64,000 nt of DNA from Leptospiraceae bacterium. Its GTDB lineage: Bacteria > Spirochaetota > Leptospiria > Turneriellales > Turneriellaceae. How positions within the stretch are numbered: the first letter of the stretch is position 1; each line of letters begins with the position of its first letter. Made by a program: the position numbers and the translations under genes. Positions 5,137 to 39,293 of this stretch are shown in pieces. The notes beneath the pieces are model-generated. The model had not been told where the DNA came from, did not search any database, and saw nothing but the letters and a program-made list of their open reading frames with translations. Where the stretch lies: assembly GCA_025055765.1 (NCBI GenBank), contig JANWWS010000014.1, positions 1-64,000 of the forward strand. Reading direction: 5' to 3'.

Positions 5137-5848
5137 TTTTTCGACAAGCGAACTTGAGCGCTATAGCCGGCAAATTCTGCTTTTTGGTCGCAAAGGGCAA
5201 GAAAAGTTAAAAAAAGCACGTGTAGGGTTAGTAGGGTTAGGGGGGCTTGGTTGCCCTGCCCTTCTTTATTTAAGTGCTGCTGGGGTGGGTTACATCCGCA
5301 TAGCCGAATTTGATATTGTAGAATGCCACAATCTCTCACGTCAAATTCTTTTCTCACAAGAAGATTGTGGCCAAAGAAAAGACCTGCAAGCCCAAAAAAA
5401 AATTAACCAACTCAACCCAAACGTAACCACGGCACTTTTTGGTAGGCTTCATGAGCAAAACATGGATGAATTTGCCCAAGATCTGCACCTCATTCTTGAA
5501 GGAAGTGACAATCTTGAGCTTAAATTTTTTTTAAATGATGCCTGCTATGCCTCAAAAATACCCCTTATTATAGGTGCTCTTGGGCCTGAGCAGGGTCATG
5601 TGTTCCCTGTTTTTTACCCCCATGCTTGCTACCGCTGCGTCTTTGTGGATGTTCCCAGTGAGGAAATACCAACTTGTGCCAGTGCTGGTGTCATAAGCCC
5701 TATGGCAGGAACACTGGGCAGCATGATGGCTTCCCTTGCTGTGCAGTTTCTCGCTATGGAAATGGTGCCCCAAGACCTCCTTGTGGTGGAGAAAACGCGT
5801 TGGCGCAGCATTCCCCTAAAGCTCAATCCCCGCTGCCCGCATCACTAG
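5129..5848 (+). CDS. MoeB/ThiF/HesA-family E1-like adenylyltransferase
   Basis: A 239-residue enzyme of the family that adenylates the C-terminal Gly-Gly of ubiquitin-like sulfur carriers (MoaD, ThiS), used for molybdopterin or thiazole synthesis. The start ERYSRQILLFG, the nucleotide loop GLGGLG (37-42) and the C-terminal region are typical of the family. CxxC at 167/170 is half of the usual zinc site. The second half is reduced to a single Cys236 followed by Pro-His-His, so a His may replace the fourth Cys. Cys183 (TCASAG) is at the usual catalytic-Cys position. The GTG start overlaps the upstream gene by 8 bases. No moaD or thiS is visible nearby, so the substrate is unknown. Its stop overlaps the lon stop on the other strand. 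Confidence 0.85.
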   Translation: MSDFSTSELERYSRQILLFGRKGQEKLKKARVGLVGLGGLGCPALLYLSAAGVGYIRIAEFDIVECHNLSRQILFSQEDCGQRKDLQAQKKINQLNPNVTTALFGRLHEQNMDEFAQDLHLILEGSDNLELKFFLNDACYASKIPLIIGALGPEQGHVFPVFYPHACYRCVFVDVPSEEIPTCASAGVISPMAGTLGSMMASLAVQFLAMEMVPQDLLVVEKTRWRSIPLKLNPRCPHH

Positions 5849-33373: not shown

Positions 33374-34934
33374 AAAGACGGCCGTTTTCTCATTTTTTAC
33401 CGTTCTTTCTCGTATTTTGGGACTTGGGCGTGATATGCTCAAGGCCTATGCCTTTGGTACAAACCTCTACGCAGTGGCCTTTGATGTGGCCTTTCGGCTC
33501 CCCAATATGCTGCGTAATCTGGTAGCCGAAGGGGCTCTTTCCCAGGCTTTTGTCCCACTATACGAGACCTACCGTCAAAAAAGCCAAGAAGAAGCGCGGA
33601 AAGCGGCAGGGGTAGTCGTTCAGTTTATGGTATTGATTTTGGGCTCATTTACCTTGCTCTTTGTATTTTTGGCACCGTATCTAGTTCCCTTTTTTGTGGC
33701 TCATGACTCATTGGAGAAAATACAGCTTACCGTAGAGCTAAGCCGAATTCTTTTTCCCTACATAGTGTTGATGAGTATCGCAGCCATCTACATGGCTGTG
33801 GAATATAGCCACGGTATTTTTTGGGCTCCTGCCTTTGGTCCAGCTCTCCTAAATCTTGTGACAATAATCTTTTTTGGGGGCTATCTTTGGTTGGCCAAAA
33901 TTTTACATAAAGATGAGGCTGCGGCAAAGCTAATCTATGTTTTTGCCTTTATTACACTATTTGCCGGCCTGATTCAACTTCTCTTTCAAATGGCAAGCGC
34001 CCATCTACGCCGTATAGGTCCTCTATATGGTGGTTTCGTAAAGCATCGGATCATTGGGCAGCTTTTTACCATGATGCTGCCAGCCGTTTTTTCCTCCGGA
34101 ATCCATGAAATTGGCCAACTTATCGATATATATCTGGCCACCTCTTTGGAAAACAAGGTTCCAGGTGCTGTATCGGCTCTTACTTACGCCCATAGACTGA
34201 TCCATCTGCCCATGGGGGTCTTTGGTGTCGCCCTTTCGACAGCAGCCCTGCCCCAATTATCTCGGTTTTTTGCAGCCAATGAAGAAGAAAAATTCCGAGA
34301 GAATTTATTGTTTTCTCTAAAGGCAAATGTCTTTCTTATATTGCCAGCGGTATTAGGTCTTATTGTCTTTGGTCAACCCATTGTGGGGCTTATTTTTGAG
34401 AGAGGAGAGTTCCAGAAAGCTTCTACAGAAATTACCGCCTATGCCTTACAGTTTTACGCTCCAGGAATTTTAGCTTTTTCCCTCCAAAAACTTTTTAGCT
34501 CTTCCTTTTATGCCCAAAAAGATACCAAGACACCTGCCATTATTAGTGCCCTAGTGTTGGTCCTAAATATCTCATTCTCTATTTTTTTTATGCAGTTTTT
34601 ACGGCATGGCGGCCTTGCTCTAGGCTCCTCTCTTGCAGCCTATGGGGGAGTTTTCCTCTATGTCCGGCGATATTCCCAAAGAGGACTATTAAAAAACACG
34701 GCGTTTTTTAAAAAAAGTGCGCCCATTTGGTTGTTAAATCTTATTTTTTTACTTTTTCTGCTTTTGCTAAGAAGTTTTTTCATGTCGTTTTCGTATCTCG
34801 TGCAACTAATGCTTTCAATTCCCTTAGCTGTCGGTTTCTATTGGTTTGCAGGGCGCTATCTAAAAATAGAAGAAGTCTCTCTGCTTGAGGATCTTTTGGC
34901 TAAACTATGGCAAAAAATTAGACAGCTTAGCTAG
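33348..34934 (+). CDS. murJ: Lipid II flippase MurJ
   Basis: A 528-residue integral membrane protein of the MATE-like MviN family that moves lipid II across the inner membrane for peptidoglycan synthesis. The N-terminus is typical (SRILGLGRDMLKAYAFGT, RLPNMLRNLVAEGALSQAFVP) and is followed by about 14 hydrophobic segments. The second half has the usual LPMGVFGVALSTAALPQLSR and SSSFYAQKDTKTP. I start it at ATG 33348 (MAHERETL), which overlaps lptC by 26 bases; a longer frame would overlap far more and adds nothing family-like. It ends 8 bases into the converging lyase gene. Confidence 0.94.
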   Translation: MAHERETLKKTAVFSFFTVLSRILGLGRDMLKAYAFGTNLYAVAFDVAFRLPNMLRNLVAEGALSQAFVPLYETYRQKSQEEARKAAGVVVQFMVLILGSFTLLFVFLAPYLVPFFVAHDSLEKIQLTVELSRILFPYIVLMSIAAIYMAVEYSHGIFWAPAFGPALLNLVTIIFFGGYLWLAKILHKDEAAAKLIYVFAFITLFAGLIQLLFQMASAHLRRIGPLYGGFVKHRIIGQLFTMMLPAVFSSGIHEIGQLIDIYLATSLENKVPGAVSALTYAHRLIHLPMGVFGVALSTAALPQLSRFFAANEEEKFRENLLFSLKANVFLILPAVLGLIVFGQPIVGLIFERGEFQKASTEITAYALQFYAPGILAFSLQKLFSSSFYAQKDTKTPAIISALVLVLNISFSIFFMQFLRHGGLALGSSLAAYGGVFLYVRRYSQRGLLKNTAFFKKSAPIWLLNLIFLLFLLLLRSFFMSFSYLVQLMLSIPLAVGFYWFAGRYLKIEEVSLLEDLLAKLWQKIRQLS

Positions 34935-36411
34935 AAAAGAGAATTTTCCTTGCCAGGTTTTCAATATCCTCATTGAGGGCGCGGCTTTCTTTTATGGGGG
35001 GATAGCCATAAAGGTAAGGGGGGAACTTTTCGCAGCCCAAGTGGCATAAACCTGCCTGAGCTAAGTGATAATATTGATTTAAGGCGATGTTTAAGATAGC
35101 TAGGATCTTTGCTAAGAGATCGGTCTGTTGTAAGGCGCGCCGACTGGCCAGAGCTGCCATAGGCACAATGTCTTGGTTGTGTGTGTTTGTGGGTATGCTT
35201 AAAGTAGCATGGGGATAACACAAAGAGCGCATCTCTGCTACAAGAGCTGTGGCCAATAGCTGGGCGCCGGCTAGGGCTGATTCTCGTCCAGGTTCAAAGG
35301 CAAGCATGGCAGGGGCCTGACTGGAAGCGGGATTCAAAAGATAAAAAAGTTGCCTTTCGGCTAGGATTCCTGTTTGGGTTAACAAAGCATTGAGTCTATC
35401 TGCAGCAAAGGCAAGATTTTGGCCAAAAAAATTTCCACCATGGACAACCGCTACCTGACCATCTCTTTCTTCAAAAAAAAGGGGGTTGTCAGAGACACCA
35501 TTGACTTCCTCCTCGACAATCCTCAAAATGTGGGAGAGCTCCCCGCGAGCTGCACCCAGTATCTGAGGGGCGCAGCGCAAACTGTAGACCTCTTGCAATG
35601 ATCGCGAAGAATTCTCTATACCTAAAGTATGCTCAAGTATGAAAGCAGCACTTTGTTTTTGCCCCTCATGTTGTCGCACCTGATGATAACGGGGGTCTAA
35701 GGCAGAGCGGCGAGCTCCCAAAAGACTATAAAGGGCAGCGGTTAGCTTTTCTGCAAACAAAATGAGTCGGCGCCCCCTTATCGCAGCAAGAGCTAGTATA
35801 GCACAGGAAAAAGAAATTCCATTTACTAGGGCTAGGGCATCCCGGCTCGAATAGTCTATCTTTTGTAAGCTTAAATCCCTCATTACCTGGCAGGCATCTT
35901 TTTCATAACCATAAAAAAATCCCCGACCCTGAAAGGTTCGAAATAAATGACTTAGAGGTATAAGATCTCCTGAGGCACCCAAACTGCCAAGCTCAGGGAT
36001 TTGAGGAATAAGCCCCTCTTGTAGGAAGGGCACAAATTTTTCGGGGAGATCTGGGGTTATACCGGAATAGCCTTGGCAGACATTATGGAGTCGCAAAATT
36101 AAAGTAAGTTGGGCAATTTCCCTTTCTACTACACAGCCGCTACCGCATGCGAGATGCTCAAGTAAATTGCGTGCCTGCTCTTCTTCCCCACCGGAGCTAT
36201 AATCCACAAGGGCACCATAACCTGTATGTGTGCCGTAGATGGGTATTTTTTGGTGTAAGGCCCTTTGATAAAGAACATAGGATTTTTCCAAAGCCAAGGG
36301 GGTCTGGGGAGAAAAAGAGAGTTCTATCTTGGGGCTTTGCGCTATTTTCTCAAGCTCAAATATCTCTAAATGAGCACCAAAGCCAATTTCAACTTGCTCT
36401 ACGGCACTCAT
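34927..36411 (-). CDS. Aromatic amino-acid ammonia-lyase, probably tyrosine ammonia-lyase (PYP chromophore supply)
   Basis: A 494-residue member of the HAL/PAL/TAL family. The MIO cofactor triad is Ala146-Ser147-Gly148 in GSLGASGDLIPLSH; the catalytic Tyr lies in IYGTHTGYG near residue 59. The selectivity pair is His86-Leu87 (NLLEHLACG), as in tyrosine ammonia-lyases, rather than Ser-His (histidine) or Phe-Leu (phenylalanine). The predicted reaction is tyrosine to p-coumarate plus ammonia. It is the last gene of the PYP operon and overlaps the ligase gene by 23 bases. No other hut genes are present. The tyrosine assignment is inference from the pair plus context. Confidence 0.88.
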   Translation of the reverse strand: MSAVEQVEIGFGAHLEIFELEKIAQSPKIELSFSPQTPLALEKSYVLYQRALHQKIPIYGTHTGYGALVDYSSGGEEEQARNLLEHLACGSGCVVEREIAQLTLILRLHNVCQGYSGITPDLPEKFVPFLQEGLIPQIPELGSLGASGDLIPLSHLFRTFQGRGFFYGYEKDACQVMRDLSLQKIDYSSRDALALVNGISFSCAILALAAIRGRRLILFAEKLTAALYSLLGARRSALDPRYHQVRQHEGQKQSAAFILEHTLGIENSSRSLQEVYSLRCAPQILGAARGELSHILRIVEEEVNGVSDNPLFFEERDGQVAVVHGGNFFGQNLAFAADRLNALLTQTGILAERQLFYLLNPASSQAPAMLAFEPGRESALAGAQLLATALVAEMRSLCYPHATLSIPTNTHNQDIVPMAALASRRALQQTDLLAKILAILNIALNQYYHLAQAGLCHLGCEKFPPYLYGYPPIKESRALNEDIENLARKILFSS

Positions 36412-37765
36412 GGGAGAGAATTTTTTCTAATGATGGTTGTCTTAAGAGGGCACCTTTGTTGTCGCGCACAAAATGCTCTCTTGGACAATAGCGTAACTCG
36501 GCACGTATTTTAGGAAAATGTCTTTTTAAGAGATTTACAATCTTTTCCTGAACCTCGAGCTTTGCTTCTTCTTCGCTTATAAATAACAAGATACCTTCTT
36601 GGGGATGGGCACTAACTAAAACACAACAAGAATAGATTACTTCCTTTTGAATGAGGCTCTCTAAAAAAGAAGCTGGGAAAAACCTACCATTAGAGAGTTT
36701 TATTTCTCCCTGACCACGACCTAAGAAATAGAGTCCTTCTGGCAAAGACTGCGCAAAATCACCCGTGTTGTGCCAAAGATCCTCAAAGAGCTGCAGACCA
36801 TGGGAGGTGAAATATCCTAAAGCACGGTTTTTGCCGCGAAAGAAAAGCTTTTTACCAAAGAGTCTTGTCTCACATCCCACCGGCTGACCGAGGTAATTAG
36901 GTTGGAAAAACCCCACCTTCCCCAAGGTGATCCCCGGCGAAGCCTCGGTTTGACCGTAACCAATGCGCAATCGGCTCCCCCTTAGCTTCTCGCAAAGTTC
37001 TTGGGAAACTGGGGCCCCGCCCACCACACCGGTGGTTAATTTCCGTAAAAAACCCTCACCTGCTTTGCATGAGTAAAGCCTCTCGATCATGAGTGGCACA
37101 GCAAATAGGCCATTACAATGGTATTCTTGTGCCCAGGATAGCGCCATTTCAGGGTCTCTTGCTCCCAAAGGTGGTCGCACAAACGTGCTTTGGGCTAGGA
37201 TCCCTGCCAGGAGCTCAAGGACCAATCCAAAGCAGTGACTCCAGGGCAGGAGAGAAAGTAGCCGCGCTTGGGCTAGACCAAGTTTTGGTAGATGGGAGGC
37301 CAACACCGCAAGAAGATTTCCTTCAGAAATAGCTACAATCTTCCTCTCCCCTGTCGACCCTGAGGTCAAAAGAAGTAAGCTTATTTCAGGATATAAGGGA
37401 AGGGAGTTTTTTCTTTTGGGAGGAAGCCTCTTGGGCAAGGTTCCATCTTCTACTTCCTCACAAGAGAGGTCTAAAAACAAAGTCGGATCTACTTTACCTA
37501 AATAGACATGGGGTTCTTTTTCGGGTAGGGGACAAAAAGTATAACCCCGTCGTAAACTAGCCAGAAGGAGAGCCAGGAAAGCCACAGAAGGTCTTGCCGC
37601 TACAGCCAGGCGTGCTCCTACGGGCAAAGAGAGACTTTGCAGCTCTTTTTCCCAAAGCCTTACTGCCCAATAAAGACTCGCACCAGGGATAACGGTGTCT
37701 GAAAATATAAAAAGGGGCTTAGCCTGCCCCTTAATGGCTTTGGTCAGATGCCTTGCCAAAGACAT
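36389..37765 (-). CDS. AMP-binding acid:CoA ligase, probable p-coumarate-CoA ligase for PYP
   Basis: A 458-residue member of the acyl-adenylate-forming superfamily. It has the ATP-binding motif LLTSGSTGERK near residue 130, the A5-type motif GYGQTEASP near 270, the A7 aspartate in LWHNTGDFA and A8-like LGRGQGEIKLSNGRF. It is shorter than typical 4-coumarate:CoA ligases (over 500 residues), mainly at the N-terminus. The expected role is to activate p-coumarate to the CoA thioester that loads onto PYP. The start shares one base with the PYP stop (TGATG on the minus strand), so synthesis of the two is coupled. Substrate specificity is inferred from context only. Confidence 0.85.
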   Translation of the reverse strand: MSLARHLTKAIKGQAKPLFIFSDTVIPGASLYWAVRLWEKELQSLSLPVGARLAVAARPSVAFLALLLASLRRGYTFCPLPEKEPHVYLGKVDPTLFLDLSCEEVEDGTLPKRLPPKRKNSLPLYPEISLLLLTSGSTGERKIVAISEGNLLAVLASHLPKLGLAQARLLSLLPWSHCFGLVLELLAGILAQSTFVRPPLGARDPEMALSWAQEYHCNGLFAVPLMIERLYSCKAGEGFLRKLTTGVVGGAPVSQELCEKLRGSRLRIGYGQTEASPGITLGKVGFFQPNYLGQPVGCETRLFGKKLFFRGKNRALGYFTSHGLQLFEDLWHNTGDFAQSLPEGLYFLGRGQGEIKLSNGRFFPASFLESLIQKEVIYSCCVLVSAHPQEGILLFISEEEAKLEVQEKIVNLLKRHFPKIRAELRYCPREHFVRDNKGALLRQPSLEKILSHECRRAS

Positions 37766-38184
37766 CAGCGTTTTTGTACGAGAATAAAGTTACTGCCGGA
37801 TAGCTTATCCCGATAAAGATGCACGTTTACATTGGTGGGGCGCATTTTATAGGTAAAGGTGTAGAGAAAAAGATGATTTAAATCCCCCCTTTTTACACCT
37901 TCTTTAAAGGTCCCATAGAAAAGGTGATTGTTGGTACAAGGGGCGATTTCCTTAAAGAAGTTCTTGCCCTCTGCCTGACTCGGCGGGATTGAGGCAAGTT
38001 CTGATTCATAGCGATTATAAATTAAAATTGTGCCATGATCGTCTACCTTAACCACGCCAAAGTCCAGACTATCGAGCTCGTTACGACTCATCTGGGCTAA
38101 TTTCGTCAAAATTTCAGGACGAACAAAACTCTGCCCCGCAAGACTCTTTGCTTTCTCACGTGCTCTAGTAACTAAATCTTGCAT
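37765..38184 (-). CDS. pyp: Photoactive yellow protein (PYP) blue-light sensor
   Basis: A 139-residue PAS-fold photoreceptor. It aligns without gaps through the core of Halorhodospira PYP: LDFGVV...GTILIYN, GKNFFKEIAPCT, FYGTFKEGV and YTFTYKMRPTNVNVH. Cys83 matches the p-coumaroyl-binding Cys69; Tyr56, Glu60, Tyr108 and Met114 match Tyr42, Glu46, Tyr94 and Met100. Positions equivalent to Thr50 and Arg52 are Ala64 and Ile66, which should alter the hydrogen-bond network and chromophore gating. The N-terminal cap is about 14 residues longer. AGGAGGG precedes the ATG. It lies between a coiled-coil gene (8 bases upstream) and the ligase gene. It should be cytoplasmic. Confidence 0.95.
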   Translation of the reverse strand: MQDLVTRAREKAKSLAGQSFVRPEILTKLAQMSRNELDSLDFGVVKVDDHGTILIYNRYESELASIPPSQAEGKNFFKEIAPCTNNHLFYGTFKEGVKRGDLNHLFLYTFTYKMRPTNVNVHLYRDKLSGSNFILVQKR

Positions 38185-38192
38185 AATCCCTC

Positions 38193-38450
38193 CTATTGTT
38201 TTTTGCGTCTAACGATCACCTGGTCACACCCGGTAACCAATAGCGTTTTTCCTTCAAAACGAAGCTCCAATTCTGTCTCCTCATGCTGCTCTTTTTCTGC
38301 ATATAGGGTTGCAAGCTGCTCCTCTAAGCTCTTGACCATAGCCACGAGCTCTTGCGGATCGCTTGTCCCAAGTTCTCTCTCCAGGAACTCCTTTTCCTGA
38401 TAAAGCAACACGAGTTGGCCTTCCATACTGCCTGATTCAGGGATTTCCAT
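38193..38450 (-). CDS. Small coiled-coil protein leading the PYP operon (unknown)
   Basis: No family recognised. The 85-residue product has a helical, heptad-like middle (residues about 10-56; VLLYQEKEFLEREL, then ELVAMVKSLEEQLATLYAEK) and a short beta-like, basic tail (LELRFEGKTLLVTG...VIVRRKKQ) with one Cys75. It lacks a signal or membrane segment. ATG 38450 is preceded by a perfect AGGAGG; a longer frame upstream crosses the promoter and is rejected. It is the first gene of the PYP operon, only 8 bases before pyp, so it may be a PYP partner, oligomeriser or output protein, which is inference. Confidence 0.85.
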   Translation of the reverse strand: MEIPESGSMEGQLVLLYQEKEFLERELGTSDPQELVAMVKSLEEQLATLYAEKEQHEETELELRFEGKTLLVTGCDQVIVRRKKQ

Positions 38451-38465
38451 AATACCTCCTGAATC

Positions 38466-38494
38466 AAAATACAAATTTGTCCAATGTTTGTCAA
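38466..38494 (-). promoter_or_regulatory. Sigma-70 promoter of the PYP operon
   Basis: On the minus strand a perfect -35 TTGACA (38494-38489), a 17-base spacer and TATTTT (38471-38466) precede the coiled-coil gene. The predicted start of transcription near 38459 leaves a leader of only about 9 bases and would touch the AGGAGG site, so the real start may lie a few bases upstream. Confidence 0.6.
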
Positions 38495-38508
38495 AAATTT
38501 TGGACAAA
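38476..38508. promoter_or_regulatory. Inverted repeat, candidate operator of the PYP operon
   Basis: TTTGTCCAA (38476-38484) and TTGGACAAA (38500-38508) are perfect 9-base inverted arms separated by 15 bases. One arm fills the -35/-10 spacer and the other sits just upstream of the -35. A third, imperfect half-site (GTTTGTCAAA, 38486-38495) lies between them. This layout suits a repressor or light/redox-responsive regulator acting on the operon, and possibly on the divergent gene at 38601. Confidence 0.5.
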
Positions 38509-38600: not shown

Positions 38601-39293
38601 ATGGAAAAACGAGCCGAAAAGCATACCGAAGCCCGCGCAAGCAATGTATTGGGGATTGGCATAAGTAAACTCTCTGAACTAGAAGAAAAGGTAAAAGCCT
38701 TTCGCACTATTAATCTTAATGCCAAAAAAAGGCGCTTCATCATTGCTCGTGAGCCCATATTAGACTCTGATGGAAAGGTGGTAGTTAACAAAGGAGAAGA
38801 GATAGATTTAGCCAAGGTGATTTATCTAAAAAGGCATTACAAACCCGACCATGTGTTTAAAACCTTTCAGCCGGATGAGGGAATTGTTCTGGTGTCTGAT
38901 ATGGGCACTCCTGCGGGGGTGCAGCTGACCATGGACCTCGTAACCCAAATCATGAACATAGGAGGAGGTGCCTACGAAGCTTTTATCGACAGAGTGGATA
39001 GCTTTAAAGAAATGAGCAATCTTTTAACGAAAACCTTGTTCCCTAAATTAGCTATTGTCGGCTATTTACCACGAGAAAGACTGCAAGAAGAAATTATTCA
39101 TTTTAGCCAAATCAGTAGAATGGATCCATATATCCGAATGATTGAGGTTATCCATACCACAATTAAACCTGCTCCCGTCATACCCCGATTAAAACAGGTG
39201 ATCATAACACCGGGAGATAGAGAATCGTGGGCTCGCTTTGTTTTGGAGGTAATTGCCGAATACACGAAGAACTACTCTATTGAGGAGCGCTAG
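38601..39293 (+). CDS. Hypothetical protein divergent from the PYP operon
   Basis: No family recognised. A 230-residue soluble, charged protein with an early helical segment (SKLSELEEKVKAFRTINL) and mixed alpha/beta content, including MGTPAGVQLTMDLVTQIMNIGGGAYE and a C-terminal WARFVLEVIAEYTKNYSIEER. There is no signal peptide or membrane segment. A GGGGAGAG ribosome site precedes the ATG. Its promoter region faces the PYP operon across 150 bases and contains the inverted repeat, so co-regulation is possible. It is followed 4 bases later by a secreted protein gene. Confidence 0.65.
   Translation: MEKRAEKHTEARASNVLGIGISKLSELEEKVKAFRTINLNAKKRRFIIAREPILDSDGKVVVNKGEEIDLAKVIYLKRHYKPDHVFKTFQPDEGIVLVSDMGTPAGVQLTMDLVTQIMNIGGGAYEAFIDRVDSFKEMSNLLTKTLFPKLAIVGYLPRERLQEEIIHFSQISRMDPYIRMIEVIHTTIKPAPVIPRLKQVIITPGDRESWARFVLEVIAEYTKNYSIEER

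Follow-up and report, generated by a model that had tools for sequence, protein, structure and literature searches.

Operons of the type pyp-pCL-TAL, in which photoactive yellow protein (PYP) is encoded together with a ligase and a lyase, have been described in Halorhodospira and their enzymes tested (PMC12826048), so that a complete PYP operon, proposed as a novel system in the initial annotation, has known precedents. TAL genes occur in just 5% of predicted pyp operons according to a 2025 review (PMC12826048), and a 2022 study (PMC9664959) found one no more than five genes away for at least 10% of pyp genes, i.e., a complete gene set for sensor and chromophore, found at approximately 5 to 10% of pyp loci, is uncommon but not new. 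The initial annotation was also unaware of any characterised spirochaete case, but Spirochaetota and Bacteroidota make up most of PYP clade B (PMC9664959, Xing et al. 2022), and for the clade B protein of Leptospira biflexa an absorption maximum of 457 nm and a photocycle of 0.35 s have been published (PMC12826048, Table 1). A claim to the first spirochaete PYP was consequently rejected (PMC12826048, PMC9664959). The signal transduction chain of PYP is regarded as an important gap in knowledge (2025 review, PMC12826048).

The locus of the current study lies in a window of 64,000 nucleotides (the whole stretch of DNA that was analysed), which stems from an assembly of 2.51 Mb with 99.4% completeness. 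Four tightly packed genes, all of them already recognised in the initial annotation and recovered in place, run on the minus strand from position 38450 down to 34927 in the order A, PYP, ligase and lyase. The features are as follows.

38476..38508, no strand: palindrome TTTGTCCAA-N15-TTGGACAAA, overlapping the candidate promoter, a possible operator (one further genomic copy)
38466..38494, minus strand: candidate promoter TTGACA-17-TATTTT, ahead of gene A (10 of 12 consensus matches)
38193..38450, minus strand: gene A, 85 aa, PYP-linked, proposed PYP signalling adaptor (homologues beside PYP genes)
37765..38184, minus strand: photoactive yellow protein, 139 aa, with Tyr56, Glu60 and Cys83 (TIGR02373, PDB PYP matches, residue check)
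36389..37765, minus strand: AMP-forming acid:CoA ligase, 458 aa, predicted p-coumarate:CoA ligase (Pfam AMP-binding, motifs, lineage alignment)
34927..36411, minus strand: MIO aromatic amino-acid lyase, 494 aa, with His86-Leu87, predicted tyrosine ammonia-lyase (PF00221, selectivity pair)

This operon is a compact case in which the sensor and the synthesis of its chromophore are encoded together. Start and stop codons, described as overlapping throughout, do so at the PYP/ligase junction, where one base is held in common (TGATG), and between the ligase and lyase genes, which overlap by 23 bp, but 8 bp separate A from PYP. The end of the lyase gene overlaps a convergent murJ gene by 8 bp. On the other side, a divergent 230-aa ORF (38601-39293) adjoins gene A; it could be assigned to no family of Pfam or NCBIfam at their cut-offs. 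The order pyp, ligase, lyase and the key chromophore residues are those of the Halorhodospira halophila operon (PMC12826048), which is, however, described as three genes, whereas in the window A precedes pyp. A plasmid operon of Indioceanicola profundi shares the order pyp, ligase, lyase and likewise has a His-Leu pair in its lyase, but it lacks the A motif and is followed by genes for another, divergent PYP-like protein and for a GGDEF protein. The former (L108:9435-9809), annotated as hypothetical, conserves Cys, Tyr and Glu. In the Leptospiraceae loci sampled, lyase and ligase genes are mostly located away from pyp, and the gene of a second PYP-linked helical protein, B, and sometimes that of a chemoreceptor lie nearby; the window, in contrast, holds the compact A-PYP-ligase-lyase unit, and B was not detected in its genome.

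The sensor itself was correctly identified. PDB entries of PYP match it with an E value of 6.6e-32, and the three residues singled out in the initial annotation, Tyr56, Glu60 and Cys83, are all present and align with Y42, E46 and C69 of Hhal PYP in a position check. Against the NCBIfam model TIGR02373 the protein scores 118.6 bits (E 1.7e-34) and does not reach the curated cut-off of 143.05, as is the case for every PYP of the class Leptospirae; the missed cut-off weighs little because the TIGRFAM model has four seed sequences and low coverage, as pointed out by Xing et al. (PMC9664959). Among the other residues of the published pocket (PMC12826048), Phe62, Ala67, Pro68 and Phe96 are kept, and Ile31 and Val66 are exchanged for Val and Ile, respectively. 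Position 50 is occupied by Ala, as in L. biflexa, which belongs to the same spirochaete class. In measured PYPs, Ala at this position tends, not without exceptions, to accompany red-shifted absorption (PMC12826048), and the sequence thus suggests absorption at the red end, comparable to the maximum of L. biflexa, as far as this trend holds. Variant PYPs were observed in two relatives, i.e., two tandem A-PYP pairs with Phe at position 42 of both PYPs in G024 (L033:6289-7952), and one of two PYPs with Gln at 46, Gly at 67 and Val at 68 in G040 (L025:6958-7383). In the PYP tree, the window protein groups with those of two genomes of the same family (G003 and G004; support 88/83). The Leptospiraceae PYPs cluster, a Bacteriovoracia PYP branches next to them, and most deep forks are without resolution.

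Gene A was counted as the fourth gene of the operon in the initial annotation, but no discussion was devoted to it, and it is apparently the main new element, i.e., an undescribed companion tightly linked to PYP. Homologues of A adjoin all 18 PYP genes in 16 Leptospirae genomes, upstream in 17 cases and downstream in a single one (G040b), where A is fused to B; each of the two tandem PYPs of G024 has an A of its own. Every Leptospiraceae PYP found has an adjoining A gene, as does the PYP of the window. An A relative is also located directly downstream of the Bacteriovoracia PYP, and PYP and A appear to have moved jointly between Leptospirae and Bacteriovoracia, the latter being represented by a MAG contig. 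At E<=1e-4, matches to A were obtained in 15 of 393 phylum genomes, all of them PYP carriers, and in the sixteenth PYP genome (G047) A scored 3e-4 in the class search. The weight of A lies in this distribution: it stands beside PYP in every PYP genome of the class and was otherwise not found in the phylum sample.

The core of A is a repeated motif, SLE.QL..LY.EKE, in which Q, L and Y are invariant or nearly so, with the caveat that chance matches are possible among coiled-coil sequences. The Leptospiraceae versions share motif and position, but their N-terminus differs and the beta tail is absent, and their homology therefore rests partly on position. An AlphaFold2 model (mean pLDDT 82) predicts a helical hairpin (residues 9-26 and 32-59) followed by a beta-hairpin (62-73). 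Comparison with Pfam and NCBIfam placed A in no family at the cut-offs (HalOD1 matched weakly, with an E value of 0.12), Foldseek retrieved nothing significant for the model from the PDB, and tblastn against plasmids gave no match. The main texts of two large PYP surveys make no mention of a coiled coil; their supplements or Meyer et al. 2012 may hold prior notice. Proteins of about 265 to 274 aa without linkage to PYP (L100, L104 and L105) also terminate in a beta tail resembling the one of A (IDGNTVSILTHRKIIVRK), and a similar tail was observed at the end of the B proteins from the same genus.

Gene content, motifs, linkage and co-occurrence are directly shown by the sequences, and chromophore binding, the response to light and the role of A are inferred. 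The arrangement of the operon is consistent with the following mechanism. The lyase would convert tyrosine into p-coumaric acid, the ligase would turn the latter into its CoA thioester, and PYP would bind the chromophore at Cys83. Judging from the characterised PYP family, blue light would then isomerise the chromophore, Glu60 would lose its proton and PYP would change its shape. A would act as a dedicated partner that recognises dark or lit PYP and relays the signal. Its binding to PYP is suggested by linkage, and the function of a PYP signalling partner is for this protein the somewhat favoured one. A self-sufficient blue-light operon with A as signal relay is the best explanation of the whole and, in our estimation, a probable one; whether A, with B where present, represents a previously unrecognised PYP-specific signalling adaptor is about evenly balanced. 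Points that speak against this explanation are the NCBIfam scores of the lyase below the cut-offs, the rearranged lysine motif at the C-terminus of the ligase, the lack of a solved structure resembling A, and an operon that contains no chemoreceptor gene in a genome in which B was not found. If true, A (and B) would answer, at least in the spirochaete clade, how a single-domain PYP relays its light signal, and for the signalling of this heavily studied photoreceptor A is a specific candidate that can readily be expressed.

A chaperone or assembly factor, which helps apo-PYP to fold or to take the chromophore from the ligase, could occupy the same position, since A lies directly ahead of PYP, belongs to the same unit as ligase and lyase in the window and is linked more strictly to PYP than to any single output gene. 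Such a function is nevertheless unlikely: the genes of PYP, ligase and lyase suffice to produce Hhal holo-PYP, with no A present (Kyndt 2003, as cited in PMC9664959), the A motif is absent from three proteobacterial plasmid PYP loci, and in Leptospiraceae A stays beside PYP though ligase and lyase genes are often elsewhere.

Which output A serves as a signalling partner is assigned with less confidence than this function itself. In G025, G047 and G040a, A is immediately preceded by a chemoreceptor gene (order chemoreceptor-A-PYP; that of G047 was called by similarity to the one of G025), and in G020 a divergent chemoreceptor gene lies beside A. B is present in 13 of 16 PYP genomes and in 0 of 32 others; its structure model is all-helical and confident, and a Foldseek comparison with the PDB gave no significant match. 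A natural fusion of the two PYP-associated proteins, with A on the C-terminal side of B, was found in G040 (L028:7332-8069). In relatives with the order chemoreceptor-A-PYP-B, the output would probably be the chemoreceptor. No chemoreceptor gene lies beside the window operon, which hence differs from the Leptospira-type PYP-chemoreceptor module, but six chemoreceptors, none of which contains the LY.EKE pattern, are encoded elsewhere in the genome, unlinked to the operon; here, A would need to act in trans on one of them or on another target. The split receptor CetA/CetB of Campylobacter, in which a separate PAS sensor stands beside a chemoreceptor without a sensory domain, was drawn upon by Xing et al. 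as an analogy for the Leptospira PYP (PMC9664959). The comparison concerns the mode of action only, since an A-type protein does not figure in that account and a chemoreceptor is lacking from the window operon.

Other neighbours of A and PYP point to lipids. Five relatives from a single genus (G028, G033, G038, G041 and G043) have a fatty-acid methylase gene ahead of the A-PYP unit, and contigs that extend far enough also carry genes for DUF1365 and a flavin oxidoreductase still further upstream (Pfam-checked in G033). The set resembles bacterial furan-fatty-acid genes (PMC7380195). The perfect palindrome of the window overlaps the candidate promoter of A, which is a consensus match only, as 0.6 such matches are expected per shuffled region. 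Elsewhere in the genome the palindrome has a single match, with one mismatch, 60 bp upstream of a fatty-acid desaturase gene; approximately 0.003 such matches are expected. This copy (L135:5243-5275, corresponding to G000:C3:35242-35274) is situated between the desaturase gene (L135:4304-5182, minus strand) and a divergent small ORF (5297-5521, plus strand). The main role of the operon might accordingly be to control membrane lipids or protection against photo-oxidation, and not movement, with PYP and A acting on a transcription regulator and the palindrome tying the operon to the desaturase. We consider this improbable, because two matches were likewise returned by a reversed control pattern when up to three mismatches were allowed, no regulator was identified, the Leptospiraceae loci point to chemoreceptors and a common operator would tell what controls the operon but not what the sensor targets. 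Under the preferred reading of A as signal relay, the chemoreceptor neighbours, the fatty-acid gene neighbours and the desaturase palindrome taken together mean that the output could be movement, lipid protection or both.

The supply of the chromophore depends on the two enzymes of the operon. The ligase matches Pfam AMP-binding with 95 bits and contains the P-loop TSGSTGERK at residue 134, YGQTEASPG at 270 and TGD within NTGDF at 333. In place of the canonical C-terminal G-K lysine motif, which is found in both proteobacterial PYP ligases aligned, it reads K-G-x-x-x-R; this variant looks like a lineage trait because it is common to the aligned PYP-type ligases of Leptospirae except that of G020. 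A p-coumarate:CoA ligase activity is predicted. The lyase matches Pfam Lyase_aromatic (PF00221) with 381.7 bits, carries the MIO triad Ala-Ser-Gly at residues 146-148 and is the sole PF00221 protein of the genome. Its residues His86-Leu87 align with the His-Leu pair of the Rhodobacter sphaeroides TAL (2o6y), whose His89 is reported to set the preference for tyrosine (PMC9002059; PMC8773403). On the basis of this one pair and of the linkage, tyrosine is the predicted substrate.

In a survey of 61 genomes (the window genome and 60 relatives, 16 with and 45 without PYP), the lyase was present in 14 of the 16 PYP genomes, always with His-Leu; it was not detected in G037 and G043, both just 75 to 77% complete. 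None of the 45 PYP-less genomes has a His-Leu lyase, and the four among them with lyases read Ser-His, Phe-His or Tyr-His at the selectivity position. The Fisher p value for the co-occurrence of His-Leu lyase and PYP, 5e-12, is a description and not a strict test because the genomes share kinship. That the lyase is instead a histidine (or phenylalanine) ammonia-lyase of catabolism, located beside PYP by accident, would agree with its best NCBIfam matches (histidine ammonia-lyase of the HutH subfamily with 308 bits, then tyrosine aminomutase, all below cut-offs), but it is very improbable given the tyrosine-type selectivity pair, the restriction of this pair to PYP genomes, the overlap with the ligase gene and the lack of a second lyase in the genome.

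The self-sufficient PYP operon postulated in the initial annotation is well supported, since the key residues are intact, the only aromatic lyase has the TAL pair and the ligase belongs to the unit; an operon whose holo-PYP would carry self-made p-coumarate is, as judged from the sequence, very likely. As to whether ligase and lyase always accompany PYP, the association largely holds at the level of genomes (PYP-type ligase in 15 of 16 and His-Leu lyase, as stated, in all but two), but the genes do not always adjoin pyp. The remaining genome, G020, has a different, proteobacteria-like ligase, and beside the ligase gene that adjoins PYP it contains an ORF resembling an acyl carrier protein (L030:7494-7799; Pfam PP-binding).
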